Origin: Prevotella sp.
Lineage (GTDB): Bacteria; Bacteroidota; Bacteroidia; Bacteroidales; Bacteroidaceae
DNA length: 51,708 nucleotides
Reading direction: 5' to 3'
NCBI GenBank assembly: GCA_017478085.1
Contig: JAFVEE010000129.1
Span: 1-51,708 of the forward strand
Numbering within the stretch: the stretch's first letter is position 1; each line of letters begins with the position of its first letter. A program made the position numbers and the translations under genes. Shown here in pieces: positions 11,942-18,505 of this stretch. The notes beneath the pieces were generated by a model, which had not been told where the DNA came from, ran no database searches, and was given only the letters and a program-made list of their open reading frames with translations.

Positions 11942-14131
11942 ATGAAGAACAAACTACTACTGCTTGCCGTGACGACACTGGCCGCCGTGTTTGCGGCTGG
12001 CGCACAGGTGCCTTTTGTAAAAGGTAAGGTCATCGACAAGACGCTCACCGAGATGAGCCTGCAGGGCGACAGCGTCAGCATGGCGTTCTCGGCAGAACAG
12101 CATGAGAGGGCCGCCAAGGCCGATGTGCTCGTGGCCTTCGGCCAGACGAAAGTGCTGGAGAGCAAGGGATGGCTCGAGTCGGCCTACGCCAAGTTTTCCC
12201 TCTACCCCGGTGCCTCGGGCTATAACGTCTACGTGAAGGGCGGCAGCCATACCGACTATACGAAGATTGACGCCCAGCTGGTGCGCAACTACGGCAGCTA
12301 TGGCCGGGCCGACGTGCTGGGACTGTCTGCCGGGGCTGATTACCAGCTGAAGATTGTTCCCACCGATGCCGAGGGCACCGAGATAGCTTCGGCAGCTGTT
12401 GTGACTGAGAAAATGAACGTAAGTGCCTACGATCGTCAGGGCTTTGCCCACTTTAATTATAATAGTGGTGTGGGCGCCTACAACAACGACGGCACGCTGA
12501 AGCAGGGGGCTGTGGTGGTCTATGTGACCGCCCAGACGGCCAAGACCGTGACGGCCCGGCTGTCGAGCGGCGAGTTCACCGGTCTGCAGGCCATCCTGTC
12601 GGCCTACGAGAAGGGCAACGTCACCACGCCGCTGGCCGTGCGCATCGTGGGCTGTGTGTCGGCTGCCGATATGGATGCCCTGGGCAGTTCGGCCGAGGGC
12701 ATACAGGTGAAGGGCAAGAACAACAGCACGCCGCTGAACATCACCATCGAGGGTGTGGGCGACGATGCCACGGTGAAGAATATGGGCTTCCTGGTTCGCA
12801 ACGCCCAGAGCGTGGAAGTGCGCAACCTGGGCATCCTCTACTGCATGGACGATGGCCTGTCGTTCGACACCGACAACCTGCACTGCTGGGCCCACCACAT
12901 CGACTTCTTCTATGGCCGCAACAAGGGTGGCGACCAGGCCAAGGGCGACGGCTCGCTCGACGTGAAGAGCGACTCGAAGTACATGACCTTTGCCTACAAT
13001 CACTTCTGGGATAGCGGCAAGACCTCGCTCTGCGGCATGAAGAGCGAGTCGGGCCCCAACTACATTACCTACCACCACAACTGGTTCGACCACAGCGACT
13101 CGCGCCATCCACGTGTCAGGACGATGACCGTCCACGTGTTCAACAACTACTACGACGGCGTGGCCAAGTATGGCGCCGGAGCCACCACGGGCAGCAGTGT
13201 GTTTATGGATCGCAACTACTTCCGCAATACCAACAAGCCCATGATGATCTCTCTGCAGGGCACCGACACCAAGATGGGCACCGACCTGAAGGATGCACCC
13301 ACCTTCTCGGGCGAGGACGGCGGTATGATTAAGAGCTACGGCAATGTCTTTGCCGAGAAATCGTCGAACTTCCGCTATGCCACCTATCAGGACAATGCCG
13401 TGGAGTTCGATGCCTACGAGGTGACCGATCCCGCCACGCCGGTGCCTGCTGAGGTGAAGTCGAAGGCCGGGGCCAACAGCTACAACAACTTCGACACCGA
13501 CCCTCAGCTGATGTACAGCTACCAGGCCGACGATGCCGCCCAGGTGCCCGCCATTGTGACGGGGTGGCTGGGAGCCGGGCGTATGGGCCACGGCGACTTC
13601 CAGTGGTCGTTCAGCAACGCCACCGAGGATGCCAACTATGCTGTGATAGCCGCCCTGAGCACCGCCGTGCAGAACTACCAGTCGTCGCTGGTGGGCATCT
13701 TCGGTCAGGAGAGTGCCCAGCAGGGTGGGGGCGGTGAGCCTGCCGACACGACCACCACAAAGCCCGATACGCCTGTGGTCGAGGGTACCATCCTGTGCAC
13801 CTTCGACAAGAGCGGCACGCCCAGTAGCTCGTTCTTCACCGTGAGTGGCAATGGCTCGAACACGAAGGGCACTGCCACCGTCGATGGCCAGACCTACGAC
13901 ACCTGCCTGAAGATGGAGTCTTCGACCAGCGTCAAGTTCACCCTTGCCCAGTCTATGCGCATGACGCTCTATTTTGGTGACACTGAGACGGCCAGCATCA
14001 AGATAGACGGCGAGAAGATTACGGGCACCTCAAGCACCTATGCCACCACGCTGGCAGCCGGGGCTCACGAGCTGACCAAGGACAAGTCGGTAAACCTCTT
14101 TGCCATCAAGCTGGAGCCCGTGGAGCAGTGA
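11942..14131 (+). CDS. Secreted pectate lyase family 1 protein
   Basis: A 729-residue exported PL1-type lyase. Signal peptide MKNKLLLLAVTTLAAVFAAG; an N-terminal beta-sandwich-like region (~35-150); then the parallel beta-helix (~155-560) with the hallmark calcium and catalytic segments: DGSLDVK (~336-342), NHFWDSGKTSLCGMK, YHHNWFDHSDSRHPRVR (~375-392, containing the catalytic-type Arg) and VFNNYYDG. A Thr/Pro linker (~595-615) leads to a C-terminal beta domain (~616-729) that may bind carbohydrate or anchor the protein. Unlike the other lyase in this window it has no recognisable T9SS tail. It begins 27 bp after the DUF5687 gene, so it may be read from that unit. Substrate: pectate, from family membership. 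Confidence 0.9.
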   Translation: MKNKLLLLAVTTLAAVFAAGAQVPFVKGKVIDKTLTEMSLQGDSVSMAFSAEQHERAAKADVLVAFGQTKVLESKGWLESAYAKFSLYPGASGYNVYVKGGSHTDYTKIDAQLVRNYGSYGRADVLGLSAGADYQLKIVPTDAEGTEIASAAVVTEKMNVSAYDRQGFAHFNYNSGVGAYNNDGTLKQGAVVVYVTAQTAKTVTARLSSGEFTGLQAILSAYEKGNVTTPLAVRIVGCVSAADMDALGSSAEGIQVKGKNNSTPLNITIEGVGDDATVKNMGFLVRNAQSVEVRNLGILYCMDDGLSFDTDNLHCWAHHIDFFYGRNKGGDQAKGDGSLDVKSDSKYMTFAYNHFWDSGKTSLCGMKSESGPNYITYHHNWFDHSDSRHPRVRTMTVHVFNNYYDGVAKYGAGATTGSSVFMDRNYFRNTNKPMMISLQGTDTKMGTDLKDAPTFSGEDGGMIKSYGNVFAEKSSNFRYATYQDNAVEFDAYEVTDPATPVPAEVKSKAGANSYNNFDTDPQLMYSYQADDAAQVPAIVTGWLGAGRMGHGDFQWSFSNATEDANYAVIAALSTAVQNYQSSLVGIFGQESAQQGGGGEPADTTTTKPDTPVVEGTILCTFDKSGTPSSSFFTVSGNGSNTKGTATVDGQTYDTCLKMESSTSVKFTLAQSMRMTLYFGDTETASIKIDGEKITGTSSTYATTLAAGAHELTKDKSVNLFAIKLEPVEQ

Positions 14132-14178
14132 CCACTCTTTTTCCCCTCATGTGTAACCCATCATCATCGTATCAACGT

Positions 14179-14268
14179 ATGGACAATTGGCTCGACATAG
14201 CAGCAGTCGTAATTCTGGTCATCGCCGGTGTGCTTATCTACCGCAGCAAGGCCAAGAGTGGCAAGTAG
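14179..14268 (+). CDS. 29-residue single-span membrane peptide
   Basis: A short ORF begins 47 bp after the pectate lyase stop and encodes MDNWLDIAAVVI... then a hydrophobic helix (VVILVIAGVLIYR) and a basic tail ending KAKSGK. One transmembrane helix of about 17 residues with a positive C-terminus predicts an N-out or tail-anchored inner-membrane peptide. There is no strong Shine-Dalgarno sequence, which is common in this phylum. It has ordinary codon use and lies just before the promoter of the oxidoreductase operon. I do not recognise a family; it could be a chance ORF. Confidence 0.45.
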   Translation: MDNWLDIAAVVILVIAGVLIYRSKAKSGK

Positions 14269-14290
14269 GCTAACATTTTTGCCGTTTTGT

Positions 14291-14321
14291 TTTGCCAATT
14301 CGGCAATAATTGCTAACTTTG
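14291..14321 (+). promoter_or_regulatory. Promoter of the 2-oxoacid:ferredoxin oxidoreductase operon with overlapping palindrome
   Basis: TTTG at 14291-14294, a 19-bp spacer and TAACTTTG at 14314-14321 fit the Bacteroidetes -33/-7 consensus very well. The spacer contains the inverted repeat TTGCC-AATTC-GGCAA (14292-14306), placed where a repressor or redox regulator could block sigma-factor binding. Start codon of the first gene is 40 bp downstream. Confidence 0.75.
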
Positions 14322-14361
14322 CCCTCCAATAAAGGAATCTTATACAAAACAAACAAATACT

Positions 14362-14592
14362 ATGGCAAAAATGAAAGGCGCCATCGTCATCGACACCACC
14401 CGCTGCAAGGGATGCGTGCTCTGCGTGCAGGCTTGTCCGCAGAACGTCATCGAGCTGGCGGGGAAGGTCAATGTGCATGGCTATCCCTATGTTGAGGCCG
14501 TGCGGCAGGAAGCCTGCATCGGCTGTGCGTCGTGCGGCATCGTCTGCCCCGACGGGTGTATAACGGTTTATCGTAAACGAGTGGAGGCATAA
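14362..14592 (+). CDS. 4Fe-4S ferredoxin-type subunit of 2-oxoacid:ferredoxin oxidoreductase (KorD-like)
   Basis: A 76-residue cytoplasmic ferredoxin-like protein with two CxxCxxCxxxC clusters (CKGCVLCVQACP at ~14-25 and CIGCASCGIVCP at ~52-63). It would pass electrons from the TPP subunit to free ferredoxin. It is the first gene of the operon and ends 3 bp before the vorB start. The start ATG at 14362 is preferred over an out-of-frame upstream ORF because it follows the strong promoter at a normal distance and gives the usual length. Confidence 0.9.
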   Translation: MAKMKGAIVIDTTRCKGCVLCVQACPQNVIELAGKVNVHGYPYVEAVRQEACIGCASCGIVCPDGCITVYRKRVEA

Positions 14593-14595
14593 GCT

Positions 14596-15720
14596 ATGGC
14601 AGAAGAGAAAGAGGTTGTATTGATGAAAGGCAACGAGGCGATAGCCCGTGCTGCCATTCGTTGCGGCGTCGACGGGTACTTTGGATACCCCATCACCCCG
14701 CAGAGTGAAGTAATTGAGACACTGGCCGAGCTGAAGCCCTGGGAGACCACGGGCATGCAGGTGGTGCAGGCCGAGAGCGAGCTGGCCTCGGTGTATATGC
14801 TCTATGGAGCCGCCGGTGCCGGCAAGAAGGCCATGACCTCGTCGTCGAGTCCCGGCGTGGCGCTGATGCAGGAGGGCATCACCTACCTGGCTGGTGCCGA
14901 GCTGCCTGCACTCATCGTCAACGTGCAGCGTGGCGGCCCCGGCCTGGGCACCATTCAGCCCTCGCAGGGCGACTATTTCCAGGCTACCCGTGGCGGTGGC
15001 AATGGCGACTACAACGTGATTGTGCTGGCCCCTGCCTCGGTGCAGGAGATGGCCGACTTCGTAGACCTGGCTTTCGAGCTGGCCTTCAAGTACCGCAACC
15101 CCGCCATGATTCTCTCTGACGGCGTGATTGGCCAGATGATGGAGAAGGTGGTGCTGCCGCCGTTCAAGCGCCGCCGCACCGACGAGGAGGTGATCGCCCA
15201 GTGCCCCTGGGCCTCGACGGGCAAGACGAAGAACCGTGAGCGCAACGTCATCACCTCGCTCGAGCTGAAGCCCGAGATCATGGAGCAGCGCAACCTGCAC
15301 CTGCAGGAGAAGTATCGCCAGATTCGCGAGAACGAGGTGCGCTACGAGATGCAGCACTGCGACGATGCCGAGTATGTGATCGTGGCCTTCGGCTCTGCCG
15401 CCCGCATCGCCGAGAAGAGCGTCGAGATAGCCCGTGCCGAGGGCATCAAGGTGGGCCTCTTCCGTCCCATCACCCTGTGGCCCTTCCCCACGAAGGAGAT
15501 TGCCCGGGTGGCCCAGGGGAAGAAGGGTGTGCTCGTGGCCGAGATCAACGCCGGCCAGATGGTGCAGGACGTGCGCCTCAGCATCAACGGTGCCGTGCCC
15601 GTAGAGCAGTTCGGCCGCCTGGGTGGCATCGTGCCCGACCCGGAGGAAATCGTGGAAGCATTGAAGAGACTACAAAGCCCCACCCCCGACCCCTCCCGCG
15701 GTGGGGAGGGGAGTAAATAG
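14596..15720 (+). CDS. vorB: 2-oxoacid:ferredoxin oxidoreductase alpha subunit (VorB-like), C-terminus altered by an element
   Basis: A 374-residue subunit of the enzyme that converts a branched-chain or other 2-oxoacid plus CoA to acyl-CoA and reduced ferredoxin. The pyrimidine-binding fold is seen in GVDGYFGYPITPQSEVIE and AGAGKKAMTSSSSPGVALM, followed by VQRGGPGLGT and a C-terminal swivelling domain (VEIARAEGIKVGLFRPITLWPFP). The native protein should end near VEALKRLQ. The last 14 residues (SPTPDPSRGGEGSK) and the stop codon come from the left inverted repeat of the DUF559 element. That tail lies outside the catalytic core, so activity may be kept. The substrate (valine-derived oxoacid or 2-oxoglutarate) cannot be settled by eye. 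Confidence 0.88.
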   Translation: MAEEKEVVLMKGNEAIARAAIRCGVDGYFGYPITPQSEVIETLAELKPWETTGMQVVQAESELASVYMLYGAAGAGKKAMTSSSSPGVALMQEGITYLAGAELPALIVNVQRGGPGLGTIQPSQGDYFQATRGGGNGDYNVIVLAPASVQEMADFVDLAFELAFKYRNPAMILSDGVIGQMMEKVVLPPFKRRRTDEEVIAQCPWASTGKTKNRERNVITSLELKPEIMEQRNLHLQEKYRQIRENEVRYEMQHCDDAEYVIVAFGSAARIAEKSVEIARAEGIKVGLFRPITLWPFPTKEIARVAQGKKGVLVAEINAGQMVQDVRLSINGAVPVEQFGRLGGIVPDPEEIVEALKRLQSPTPDPSRGGEGSK

Positions 15721-16210
15721 TTTTTTCCCTTGTGACTGAAGCGCTTCATTATTTATGGAACGGAGGCATGAGACAGCTGCACCTGATAGGTATGACTTGC
15801 TGAAAGCCTATGCAAGGCATAACAGACACGAGATGACCGAGAGCGAACAGACCCTTTGGGCAGCCTTACGAAAAGAGTTCGGGGGTATAAAGTTTCGCAG
15901 GCAGCACCCAATTGGTGACTATATTGCTGACTTTCTTTGCCTGACGAGGAAACTTGTTATCGAGGTTGATGGCGGTTATCATAACGACCCACAGCAGCGG
16001 ATTGAAGATGTGTGGCGCACAGAGTTCCTGGAAAGCAAAAACTACAGGGTGCTTCGTTTCACGAATGAAGAAGTAAACACCGACACGAGAGGCGTGATAA
16101 GCAGAATTAAAGAAGAACTAATAAAAATCGAAGATAGTTATGAACAATAATCAAACAGCACAAGTATCTACCCCCCTCCCCCCCGCGGGAGGGGCCGGGG
16201 GTGGGGCTTT
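15674..16210. mobile_element. DUF559 element, intact copy, with 38-bp terminal inverted repeats
   Basis: A 537-bp insert lies between the alpha and TPP subunit genes. Left end 15674-15711 begins AAAGCCCCACCCCCGACCCC; the reverse complement of right end 16173-16210 begins AAAGCCCCACCCCCGGCCCC, and the two 38-mers differ at only about two positions. Each end also contains its own internal palindrome. The interior is AT-rich relative to the host genes and carries one ORF, the DUF559 endonuclease. The right end includes an ATG (16140) that starts the downstream host gene. I see no clear target-site duplication. No transposase is present, so the nuclease or a trans-acting factor would have to mobilise it. 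The boundaries are inferred from the repeats and from the second copy at 16953-17187. Confidence 0.8.
15755..16150 (+). CDS. DUF559 endonuclease-domain protein
   Basis: A 131-residue protein of the DUF559 family, which has the Vsr/very-short-patch-like restriction endonuclease fold. Visible features are the N-terminal helix MTESEQTLWAALRKEFGG, the conserved FRRQHPIGDYIADF (acidic residue of the active site) and VIEVDGGYH (E-x-D catalytic motif), then WRTEFLESKNYRVLRFTNEEV. It is probably a metal-dependent DNA nuclease. It sits inside an oxidoreductase operon, flanked by inverted repeats, with AT-richer codons than its neighbours. Its stop codon overlaps the next gene's start as ATGAACAATAA, so ribosomes finishing it could reinitiate on the host TPP subunit gene. 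Its role in moving the element is inference. Confidence 0.85.
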   Translation: MERRHETAAPDRYDLLKAYARHNRHEMTESEQTLWAALRKEFGGIKFRRQHPIGDYIADFLCLTRKLVIEVDGGYHNDPQQRIEDVWRTEFLESKNYRVLRFTNEEVNTDTRGVISRIKEELIKIEDSYEQ

Positions 16211-16997
16211 TGAGGGCTACACCTGTGTTTACAAGAAGCCCTCTTTGCTCAACGACAACAATATGCACTATTGCCCGGGCTGCTCGCACGGCGTGGTGCA
16301 CAAGCTCATTGCCGAGGTGATCGAGGAGATGGGCCTGGAGGAGAAGGCCGTGGGCGTGAGCCCCGTGGGTTGCGCCGTCTTCGCCTACAATTATATAGAC
16401 ATTGACTGGCAGGAGGCTGCCCACGGTCGTGCCCCCGCACTGGCCACGGGCATCAAGCGCTGCTGGCCCGACCGCCTGGTGTTCACCTATCAGGGCGACG
16501 GCGACCTGGCCTGCATAGGCACCTGCGAGACCATACACGCGCTGAACCGTGGCGAGAACATCGTCATCATCTTCGTGAACAATGCCATCTACGGCATGAC
16601 GGGCGGCCAGATGGCTCCCACCACCCTCATTGGCCAGAAGACGGCCACCTGCCCCTATGGCCGCGACCCCAAGCTGCACGGCTACCCGCTGAAGATGGCC
16701 GACATAGCCGCCGGGCTGGAGGGCACGTGCTATGTGACCCGCCAGTCGGTAGAGTCGGTGGCCTCGATCCTGAAGGCCAAGAAGGCACTGAAGAAGGCAT
16801 TCCAGGCCTCGATGGACGGCAAGGGCTCGAGCCTGGTGGAGTTTGTAAGCACCTGTAACAGTGGCTGGAAGCTCTCGCCGGTGAAAGCAAATGAGTGGAT
16901 GAAGGAGAATATGTTCCCCTTCTATCCCAAGGGTGACTTGAAGGATACCATCAGCCCCACCCCCAGCCCCTCCCGCAGTGGGGAGGGGAGTAAATAG
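16140..16997 (+). CDS. 2-oxoacid:ferredoxin oxidoreductase TPP-binding (beta) subunit, both ends altered by elements
   Basis: A 285-residue subunit holding thiamine diphosphate. The family core is clear: VYKKPSLLNDN, MHYCPGCSHGVVHKLIAEV, the TPP motif GDGDLACIG...NN (~120-150), YGMTGGQMAPTT and VEFVSTCNSGWKLSP. The first 23 residues (MNNNQTAQVSTPLPPAGG plus AGGGA) are encoded by the right end of the upstream element, and the last ~14 (SPTPSPSRSGEGSK) by the left end of the second element. I prefer ATG 16140 over internal ATG 16263 because the latter would remove VYKKPSLL, which belongs to the family. The two cysteines of CPGC are kept. It follows DUF559 with an 11-bp overlap. Confidence 0.88.
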   Translation: MNNNQTAQVSTPLPPAGGAGGGAFEGYTCVYKKPSLLNDNNMHYCPGCSHGVVHKLIAEVIEEMGLEEKAVGVSPVGCAVFAYNYIDIDWQEAAHGRAPALATGIKRCWPDRLVFTYQGDGDLACIGTCETIHALNRGENIVIIFVNNAIYGMTGGQMAPTTLIGQKTATCPYGRDPKLHGYPLKMADIAAGLEGTCYVTRQSVESVASILKAKKALKKAFQASMDGKGSSLVEFVSTCNSGWKLSPVKANEWMKENMFPFYPKGDLKDTISPTPSPSRSGEGSK

Positions 16998-17187
16998 TTC
17001 TCCTCCCATGGAACGCAGGCAAAGGGCGTGCGTTTCAGCCATGAAGAAGTAAACACTGGCACGAGCGGTGTGATATATAAATGTCAAAGAAGAACTGATA
17101 ATAATTGAAGATAGTTATGAACAATAATCAAACAGCACAAGTATCTACTCCCCTCCCCCCCGCGGGAGTGGCCGGGGGTGGGGCTTT
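16953..17187. mobile_element. Second, internally deleted copy of the DUF559 element
   Basis: A 235-bp derivative lies between the TPP and gamma subunit genes. Left repeat 16953-16988 and right repeat 17150-17187 match the ends of the intact copy with few changes. The right-hand 40 bp before the repeat (from GAAGATAGTTATGAACAATA on) are identical to the intact copy. The interior keeps only the first ~15 bases and the last ~105 bases of the nuclease gene. As a short non-autonomous element with long inverted repeats it resembles a MITE. Confidence 0.8.
17008..17127 (+). pseudogene. Remnant of a DUF559 gene
   Basis: It starts ATGGAACGCAGGCA, matching the intact gene's ATGGAACGGAGGCA. It then jumps to sequence matching the 3' part (GTTTCAGCCATGAAGAAGTA versus GTTTCACGAATGAAGAAGTA) and ends with the same stop context. 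About 276 bp are missing and the frame hits a stop after 14 codons, so no nuclease is made. The conserved stretch at its end carries the start codon of the next host gene. Confidence 0.85.
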
Positions 17188-17728
17188 GAAGAAGGAAATC
17201 ATTATAGCAGGATTTGGTGGTCAGGGCGTGCTCTCGATGGGTAAGATTCTGGCCTACTCAGGACTGATGGAAGACAAGGAAGTGACGTGGATGCCCGCCT
17301 ACGGCCCCGAGCAGCGCGGCGGCACGGCCAACGTCACCGTGATCGTGAGCGACGAGCGCATCTCGTCGCCCATCCTCTCGAAGTACGACATCGCCATTGT
17401 GCTCAACCAGCCATCGCTCGAGAAGTTCGAGCCGAAGCTGAAGCCCGGCGGCATCCTCATCTACGACAGCTACGGCATCATCAACCCGCCTACGCGCCAG
17501 GACATCACCGTCTACAAGATTGATGCCATGGACAAGGCCGCCGAGATGAAGAACGGCAAGATCTTCAACATGATCGTGCTGGGCGGCCTGCTCAAGGTGG
17601 CTCCCGTGGTGGGCACCGGCGGCGTGGAGAAAGCCCTGAAGAAGACCCTTCCCGAGCGTCATCACGACCTGATACCCCTGAACATGCAGGCACTCGAGGA
17701 GGGTGGAAAGATTATAGAGAAGTGCTAA
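17117..17728 (+). CDS. 2-oxoacid:ferredoxin oxidoreductase gamma subunit, N-terminus donated by an element
   Basis: A 203-residue subunit of the same complex, recognised by IIIAGFGGQGVLSMGKILAY, MPAYGPEQRGGTANVTVI and the C-terminal KTLPERHHDLIPLNM. In relatives the protein is expected to begin directly at MKKEIIIAGFGGQG. Here residues 1-23 come from the right end of the deleted element (MNNNQTAQVSTPLPPAGV plus AGGGA) and LKKEIII follows in frame. I use ATG 17117, homologous to the start of the TPP subunit, rather than the upstream TTG at 17105. Its stop overlaps the stop region of the convergent methyltransferase gene by 4 bp. Confidence 0.88.
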   Translation: MNNNQTAQVSTPLPPAGVAGGGALKKEIIIAGFGGQGVLSMGKILAYSGLMEDKEVTWMPAYGPEQRGGTANVTVIVSDERISSPILSKYDIAIVLNQPSLEKFEPKLKPGGILIYDSYGIINPPTRQDITVYKIDAMDKAAEMKNGKIFNMIVLGGLLKVAPVVGTGGVEKALKKTLPERHHDLIPLNMQALEEGGKIIEKC

Positions 17729-18456
17729 GACCGCTCCCTTCTGCGGAACTCTGAGCAAGTGATGGCAGTGGCAATGGCCACGTTCAGGCTCTCGGCCGAG
17801 TCGCCCTGGCGAAAGGCAGGTATGAGCAGCCTGTGCGTGACGAGCTCCCTGACAGGGGCTGAAATGCCATTGCCTTCATTTCCCATGACGATGATGCCCT
17901 TGGCGGGCAGCTCATGGCGGTAGATGTCGTCGCCATCGAGCAGCGTGCCAAACACGGGCAGCGCCACTTCGGCGAGCAGCGACGGCAGGTCGGTATAGAC
18001 CACGCCGACGCGGGCTATGCTGCCCATCGTGGCCTGCACCACCTTCGGGTTCCACACGTCGGCCGTGTCGGGCGAGCAGAAGATGGTGTCGATGCCGAAC
18101 CAGTCGGCAATGCGCACGATGGTGCCCAGGTTGCCGGGGTCTTGCACCCCGTCGAGTGCCAGGTAGAGCTTCTTCGTCGTGGGCAGTGCCGTGGCAGGGT
18201 GGGGGATGGGAAACACGGCCAGCACCTGCTGCGGGTGCTGCAGGAAGCTCAGCTTGCGCAGCTCCTCGTCGGTCACCAGGATGGTGCCGTCACAGCCGCT
18301 CCAGCCCTCGGTGGCATAGACGGTCTTCGGCATGAGCCCGCACTTCAGCAGGTCGCCCACCACTTTGGGGCCTTCGGCCACGAATAGTCCTTCGCGCTGG
18401 CGATGCTTCTTCATCTCCAGCTGTTTCACGAGTTTTATTTGGTTTTTGCCTATCAT
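17725..18456 (-). CDS. TrmH/SpoU-family RNA 2'-O-methyltransferase
   Basis: A 243-residue SAM-dependent methyltransferase of the SPOUT class acting on rRNA or tRNA ribose. An N-terminal substrate-binding domain (NQIKLVKQLEMKKHRQREGLFVAEG, split at EG) leads to the knotted domain with the three SpoU motifs: LDGVQDPGNLGTIVRIADWF (~105-124), IVMGNEGNGIS (~195-205) and IPAFRQGDSAESLNVAIATAI (~218-238). The target nucleotide cannot be told by eye. It is divergent from the TamL-like gene, sharing a 66-bp intergenic region, an arrangement often kept in Bacteroidetes. Confidence 0.93.
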   Translation of the reverse strand: MIGKNQIKLVKQLEMKKHRQREGLFVAEGPKVVGDLLKCGLMPKTVYATEGWSGCDGTILVTDEELRKLSFLQHPQQVLAVFPIPHPATALPTTKKLYLALDGVQDPGNLGTIVRIADWFGIDTIFCSPDTADVWNPKVVQATMGSIARVGVVYTDLPSLLAEVALPVFGTLLDGDDIYRHELPAKGIIVMGNEGNGISAPVRELVTHRLLIPAFRQGDSAESLNVAIATAITCSEFRRRERS

Positions 18457-18505
18457 AACTTAAAAAAAAGTACGTAATTGTGGCACAAAGATAGAAATAA
18501 ATATT

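Follow-up and report, generated by a model that had tools for sequence, protein, structure and literature searches.

A DUF559 nuclease gene framed by REP-like palindromes at a Prevotella operon junction: a putative mobile element compatible with host translation

Why does a nuclease gene sit between two subunit genes of a 2-oxoacid oxidoreductase operon, and how are the genes on either side read across it? The question is raised by a contig of Prevotella sp. (JAFVEE010000129.1, 51,708 nt, from the 3.13-Mb assembly GCA_017478085.1; the whole contig is called the window below), in which a 537-bp cassette at 15674-16210, consisting of inverted arms around an intact DUF559 gene, lies between vorB and the gene of the TPP subunit. 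REP palindromes are common bacterial repeats. On balance we favour the reading that the cassette belongs to a translation-compatible REP/REPIN-like family with a homing-type DUF559 nuclease, in which it would be the putatively autonomous version that has the nuclease, alongside short satellite copies. The host range of the family is best read as Prevotella, rumen relatives included, and other Bacteroidales.

The initial annotation described an insert of this length with inverted repeats and a DUF559 gene between the two host genes, and the open reading frames, Pfam and an inverted-repeat search show it to be real. The ends are near-matching and inverted as stated, but they exceed the 38 bp first given: the arms measure 49 nt each, are 90% complementary and lie 439 nt apart (Table 1). 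Between these terminal repeats DUF559 is the only gene identified by Pfam. Comparison of loci by eye revealed no consistent target-site duplication. A search at Rfam gathering scores over 14000-18500 returned 0 matches, which rules out the element as an Rfam RNA family, and the single-strand fold of the left arm (z = -0.9) is not significant by itself. The nuclease frame 15755-16150 was passed over by a gene finder that had learned codon usage from the window, suggesting atypical codon usage.

VorB reads EALKRLQ followed by SPTPDPSRGGEGSK and the stop; its last 14 residues and stop codon are therefore encoded by the left repeat, as had been proposed. The proposed start for the downstream gene is also present, an in-frame ATG that overlaps the nuclease stop and reads MNNNQTAQVSTPLPPAGGAGGGA into the TPP subunit. 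This is the sole ATG, GTG or TTG within the element for the open TPP frame. The residues KKPSLLNDNNMHYCPGC that follow the right arm are conserved in relatives, therefore translation should begin upstream of them. We infer that ATG 16140 is the start codon, and peptides MNNNQTAQVSTPLPP.. are the predicted N-terminal product of translation from it.

Table 1. Features of the oxidoreductase operon and its two elements (positions in the window)
Feature	Position	Strand	Basis
4Fe-4S subunit of the 2-oxoacid oxidoreductase operon (context)	14362..14592	+	Pfam Fer4 families
VorB (POR_N/PFOR_II), final 14 residues and stop from the element	14596..15720	+	ORF, Pfam; empty relatives end EALKKVM and stop, or similar
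Left REP arm: tail GCCCCACCCCC, hairpin CCCCTCCC..GGGGAGGGG, inner motif AGTAAATAG holding the VorB stop	15674..15722	+	inverted repeat
DUF559 endonuclease (putative), 131 aa, intact	15755..16150	+	Pfam PF04480, 119 bits
Element-supplied ATG, overlaps nuclease stop TAA 16148-16150; inferred TPP start	16140..16142	+	ORFs
Right REP arm; the TPP frame continues across it (TPLPPAGGAGGGA)	16162..16210	-	ORF, inverted repeat
TPP-binding subunit: N-terminal leader from the element, C-terminus (..SPTPSPSRSGEGSK and stop) from the second element	16140..16997	+	ORF, Pfam TPP_enzyme_C
Second element, bounded by arms at 16953-16999 and 17139-17187; remnant of the nuclease tail from ca. 17031	16953..17187	+	
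Gamma (POR) subunit, same ATG leader MNNNQTAQVSTPLPPAG	17117..17728	+	ORF, Pfam POR

Thirty relative loci were fetched for the vor operon and the 15 on the + strand, this genome included, were read. The VorB–TPP junction is empty in 11 and filled in 4, this genome among them. At empty loci VorB ends for example in EALKKVM and a stop, TPP begins for example with MDRNQIVQPENIVCKKP, and the spacer ranges from a stop/start overlap to roughly 120 nt. Insert-free relatives had been named as the place where a leader of host origin would be found; none of the 11 empty loci carries the leader, and an origin in the element survives this check. All nine distinct filled vor loci examined have an in-frame ATG inside the element. 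The interior peptide GQTAKVITPLPSAGGVGGGA of a REP pair located within a gene (L209) resembles the vor leader NNQTAQVSTPLPPAGGAGGGA, on which grounds the leader is probably element sequence; it could also be a captured native start (MDRNQIVQ in relatives). The TPP proteins of the window copy and of L057 are 99% identical and the nucleases only 77%. Lateral gain of the vor copy was rejected for want of a signal, the element diverging like its flanks or faster.

One junction downstream, between the TPP and gamma genes, is a second element that the initial annotation had missed and whose nuclease is mostly deleted. Its right part matches positions 382-537 of the first element at 88%, and the alignment shows its leader to be identical to that of the first up to the right arm. 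This junction was read in 13 loci, and in 10 of them the gamma subunit begins at MKKEII with nothing in front. That a native start was captured is unlikely for gamma, because relatives have no leader at that site. The second element is best read as an internal-deletion satellite of the nuclease-bearing form. REP pairs are seen at the TPP–gamma junction of two relatives (G059 and G051) too.

The window nuclease matches Pfam PF04480 (DUF559) with E=1e-34, far above the cut-off (119 bits vs 20.6), and retains every residue that is invariant in an alignment of 31 family proteins (D59, E70, D72, G73, H76 and D85), of which D59, E70, D72 and H76 are candidate active-site residues. Its profile matches two solved proteins, 3hrl (E=3e-33) and the mobile intron protein 3r3p (E=9e-7), which we take to be I-Bth0305I, an EDxHD homing endonuclease. 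It is best regarded as a putative PD-(D/E)XK/Vsr-like endonuclease related to the mobile-intron nuclease. Spread on phage or plasmid vehicles was considered and rejected: among 50,697 phage records 3 gave a match, among 72,556 plasmid records 42 did, and every one of these was below 60% identity. This genome has three DUF559 genes, each near REPs. The stop of the second overlaps an ATG (ATGAATAATTC), and the frame opened there crosses the right REP and continues into a gene that by eye is transporter-like. The third (L027/L248, G000 C29:14235-14719) belongs to a distant clade and is framed by outward-facing REPs.

The arms are REP-like palindromes, and the pairs that lack a nuclease are REPIN-like. 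The REP core pattern has 63 + 60 = 123 matches in the assembly against 0 + 1 for its reversed control. Chance or artefact was rejected on this count and because the same architecture is found in the single-contig genome G117 (L302) and in the record of a named strain, Prevotella sp. DNF00663 (L103). Hairpin strength of the single strand shows no excess over shuffled sequences (z from -1.5 to +0.6) and was discarded as an explanation on its own. Of the 123 places 100 were listed, and 40 regions were chosen from these with a preference for pairs. The 36 pairs in this sample comprise 21 that lie in one continuous open frame, 14 at co-directional junctions and one at a convergent junction; 12 of the 14 nuclease-less pairs at co-directional junctions have a downstream in-frame ATG inside the element. 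Some starts within pairs, such as those of SusD-like signal peptides, look native or captured.

Several further features of the REPs were seen in passing. By eye, pairs in L237 (1989-6121) and L246 (10525-10701) lie at apparent SusC–SusD junctions and encode part of a lipoprotein signal peptide, for example APLTWGGVGGGL before the lipobox; the three L237 copies have much of their interior in common. Near-identical in-gene pairs at L210 811-925 and L211 73-187 share the same protein context on two contigs and may reflect a duplicated gene or an assembly duplicate. In G016 (C1:371604-371975) REPs are arrayed in tandem in the same orientation, mostly 44-47 bp apart, whereas pairs elsewhere are inverted.

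A named scan for DUF559 gave 63 loci. The main-clade set used here holds 72 distinct Bacteroidales loci, 4 duplicates having been dropped and 11 distant loci, 6 loci from another Prevotella clade (3 of these with arms) and L186 set aside. With the threshold at a score 10 or more above the highest of 20 shuffles, inverted arms flank 64 of the 72; among the eight calls without arms, L026 of this genome does hold REPs on both sides. Both neighbours are co-directional with the nuclease in 60 of the 62 loci where both were called, and in the two exceptions (L190 and L205) the nuclease is fused to an IspF (YgbB) domain and the next gene was counted. In 35 of 62 loci the upstream gene stops no more than 5 nt from the left arm, and in 20 its stop is inside the element (+6 to +60). 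Downstream, 24 of 62 loci have an in-element, in-frame ATG (9 of them the vor junction), 20 an open frame only, 15 a closed frame and 3 a fusion; the other two frames contain such an ATG in 14 of 124 cases, a control to be read with nine of the 24 coming from one vor junction. The overlap of nuclease stop and start recurs at a transporter-like gene, a GyrB/ParE-like gene and asnS.

These counts bear on what had been proposed about placement. Recurrence at operon junctions with downstream genes left readable holds (60 of 62 loci co-directional, an ATG in 12 of the 14 sampled pairs). Junctions are not the exclusive target, however, as 21 of the 36 sampled REP pairs are in frame inside genes. The portable start codon exists in the 24 loci mentioned but is not universal: asnS and one etfA–acd clade (L073/L075/L081) keep a native start, with the right arm located within the downstream gene (acd in that clade). 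The suggestion that the element is adapted to spare downstream genes finds no support. The 93 REP arms examined are no more open outward than inward (1.00 closed frames against 1.10, shuffles 0.90), which disposes of a ‘translational diode’; frame-keeping may therefore be the outcome of selection after insertion.

Recurrent junctions, identified by Pfam for part and by eye for the rest, include vorB–TPP, etfA–acyl-CoA dehydrogenase (acd), etfB–etfA, lysS–gpsA, yicC–gmk, pseudouridine synthase–asnS, a ketoacyl-synthase cluster, the junction before thrC, and argG–argC. Nuclease clades cluster by junction, with 21 label changes on a quick 90-row tree against a minimum of 15 and 58 when shuffled; this tree leaves 38 of its 83 inner branches without resolution and contains some genomes in two rows, having been fetched twice. 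The etfA–acd junction appears at four places on it, and the well-supported branches force just one origin. In 21 of 30 etfA–acd loci read (L281 among them by a doubtful match) the spacer is 2-3 nt in three, holds a nuclease in one and consists of other DNA in the rest, so the junction looks like an insertion hot spot. In L264-L269, L274, L275, L277, L291 and L293 the other DNA in the spacer amounts to about 170-213 nt, and several of these spacers show by eye a small ORF starting MK. In L273 the in-frame leader of acd comes from a different palindrome (AAGCCCCCCTTAGTCCCCCCGAAGGGGGG).

Both forms also occur within genes. A Pfam domain was found in 9 of 10 scanned proteins with an in-frame REP pair, including LeuRS, MiaB and LpxB. 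Among eight MiaB loci read out of 15, REP-encoded inserts were observed in the same loop in three genomes (L249, L250 and L251), belonging by peptide to at least two REP subfamilies. As to the nuclease, the 120 genomes gave 129 DUF559 matches down to E of about 2e-20; 42 of them are in open frames of at least 250 aa, and 23 of the 25 of these 42 that were scanned hold a second domain. Eight nucleases are internal by sequence: two each in LeuRS, a helicase and DegT, and one each in an ABC-F protein and an epimerase; both helicase inserts are at one site, directly after the Walker motif. Arms are clear in L295, L297, L299 and L302, weak in L296 and do not rise above shuffles around L298, L301 and L305. 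The LeuRS loop DAKEG..GLTVKEAI, read in 27 of 30 loci, has 13 residues in 12 loci, 17-25 in 11 and 46 in one. In this genome, where a REP pair occupies the loop, it has 42 residues; two genomes with another repeat type have 40-42, and G043, which has the nuclease there, has 219. The arms of the LeuRS nuclease are weak (28 vs 20 shuffled) and the G043 repeats differ in sequence from the REP pair of this genome. No splicing (Hint) domain was found in the fused DUF559 proteins scanned with Pfam, and the nuclease insert seems to stay in the protein.

Is DUF559 the enzyme of these REPs, or are they an ordinary REP/REPIN population moved by RAYT or another transposase, with DUF559 a passenger or repair gene bracketed by chance? 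This genome does have a Y1 transposase (C148:11954-12298), and it has at least three REP subfamilies for 3 DUF559 genes only; REPs in genes and stops supplied by REPs are, moreover, on record for the GTAG/CGTC families in an excerpt of PMC3733652. The distribution of REPs over 120 genus-mate genomes, counted with one REP pattern, points the other way. REP count follows DUF559 (p=2.7e-10, kinship ignored): the 63 genomes with a strong DUF559 match have a median of 10 REPs (sum 1303, reversed control 46) and the 57 without have a median of 0 (sum 125, reversed control 8). No association with a Y1/RAYT-type transposase was detected in the same 120 genomes (p=0.11 for any match, 0.72 for strong ones), and the association with DUF559 persists in genomes lacking a Y1 match (20 vs 27, p=1.6e-4), shared ancestry being ignored in these statistics as well. 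There are exceptions, namely 6 genomes with at least 5 REPs and no strong DUF559 and 17 strong-DUF559 genomes with fewer than 2 REPs. Since, in addition, 64 of 72 nuclease loci are REP-bracketed and nuclease and nuclease-less inserts share the LeuRS site, we consider a RAYT-driven population unlikely, while giving it the most weight among the alternatives. Distant DUF559 loci, mostly of other phyla, have clear arms in 4 of 11 cases. The tail pattern RGGNTRGGRTGRGGG is found 181 times against 0 for the reversed control in a Sideroxydans genome, and in ten other distant genomes 24 v 0, 13 v 0, 12 v 0, 5 v 0, 4 v 0, 2 v 1, 1 v 0, 0 v 0, 0 v 1 and 0 v 3; given these uneven counts, the link of REPs to DUF559 is not universal.

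Signals of movement come from alleles and from identity. Empty and filled alleles of one site, as in homing endonuclease elements, exist at vor, etfA–acd and LeuRS. We compared 33 same-junction pairs, all above 80% nuclease DNA identity, counting differing columns with gaps included. In 4 of the 33, from differently named MAGs, similarity of the elements clearly exceeds that of either flank; the others look vertical. In the sharpest case, L089 and L093 have 4 differences in the 578-bp element against 130/700 and 158/900 in the flanks (19% and 18%), the nearest flanking differences being 36 nt upstream and 18 nt downstream. The corresponding figures are 8/534 against 58/700 and 79/900 for L099/L100, and 10/498 against 55/700 and 98/900 for L087/L090. 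L075 and L081 differ at 1 position over the first 420 nt and at 53 over the full 637, with 101/700 and 90/900 in the flanks. To judge from these alignments, the four pairs have the pattern of same-site lateral gain, a homing-like signature. Homing thus has support at some sites; at vor, where the pairs look vertical, it would be only an inferred property of the window copy.

The tract shared by L075 and L081 is the left arm and nuclease; it stops before the right arm, and arms and nuclease therefore need not move together. This would suit pure homing, in which DUF559 homes to junctions or loops and REPs are independent hairpins or terminators gathered later, as would the right arm inside the acd gene in the L073/L075/L081 clade, the internal inserts L298, L301 and L305 with no clear arms, and the profile similarity to 3r3p. 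We nevertheless judge it improbable: the arms match each other, they flank 64 of the 72 main-clade nucleases, and REP load correlates with the nuclease. A host nuclease domesticated for mismatch repair or defence and inherited vertically in operons, with frames kept by purifying selection on essential neighbours, would account for the many vertical-looking pairs (vor included) and for frame preservation, which is expected under selection. A Caulobacter DUF559 protein has indeed been proposed to be Vsr-like, according to an excerpt of PMC12907096. Domestication is hard to reconcile with the many unrelated junctions and in-gene sites, the empty alleles in relatives and the four pairs whose elements are far more alike than core-gene flanks, and we give it very little credence.

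We therefore return to the nuclease-bearing REP/REPIN-like element, which might work as follows. The nuclease would cut the empty junction or loop, and the cassette would be copied into the cut site by repair in a homing-like manner, the REPs serving as its ends. Expression of the nuclease would come from co-transcription with, and translational linkage to, the host genes. Host translation would be spared, and insertions kept, where the upstream gene finds a stop in the left arm or runs through it and where the right arm reads in frame, in many cases starting at an ATG that overlaps the stop of the nuclease. Short palindrome pairs without a nuclease (REPINs, internal-deletion copies) would be satellites of the nuclease-bearing element.

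The wider claim is more tentative, with prospects a little short of even: that this is a new class of mobile element, a fully translatable REP-ended homing-type nuclease that needs no intron or intein, enters between or inside essential genes, supplies stops and starts or becomes an in-frame domain and spawns REPIN satellites able to use the same sites, and that the REP tail and hairpin with a DUF559 partner, seen also in some genomes beyond Bacteroidota, may supply the enzyme of some orphan REP families. The CGTC super-family of REPs is large and said to be without a dedicated transposase (excerpt of PMC3733652); the pairing of nuclease and REPs in 64 of 72 loci and a REP load that tracks the nuclease, not Y1, make DUF559 a candidate enzyme for such an enzyme-less family. 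The element also illustrates how a nuclease gene can be housed in leucyl-tRNA synthetase, or between the subunit genes of an energy enzyme, with no visible splicing domain, and how proteins may acquire new termini, leaders and fused domains. Where annotated proteins end in sequences of the LPSLGEGLGVG or TPLPPAGGAGGGA type, these ends may stem from such an element.

Among known systems the closest likeness is to REPtrons, in which REPs flank the gene of a RAYT tyrosine transposase, and REPINs. Both have a gene between inverted REP palindromes, few copies of the gene and many short gene-less pairs, both are chromosomal and in both REP load follows the presence of the gene; intragenic REPs and REP-supplied stops are reported for GTAG/CGTC REPs too (excerpt of PMC3733652). 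The enzyme differs, being here of the DUF559 PD-(D/E)XK type and not an HUH/Y1 RAYT, the REP tails are neither GTAG nor CGTC, and the enzyme gene sits between core genes or in frame inside them. Rickettsia palindromic elements, also named in that excerpt, are likewise in-frame palindromic inserts tolerated in protein genes. We know of no dedicated enzyme for the Rickettsia elements; the present family has a nuclease form and short forms at one LeuRS site. Inteins and split-gene endonucleases place a nuclease in frame inside essential enzymes, as is seen here for LeuRS, but the Pfam tables of the scanned fusions contain no splicing domain. With EDxHD homing endonucleases such as I-Bth0305I (excerpt of PMC3943268) the element shares the profile relation to 3r3p (E=9e-7), site clustering and some same-site identity peaks; it differs in having no intron or intein, in its REP bracket and short protein, and in a cleavage activity that is putative. 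Judged by title and abstract opening, none of the open-access papers listed joins DUF559 to REPs or inverted repeats. The DUF559 cassette is thus REPtron-like with a different enzyme, and there is a fair chance that it is more than that.
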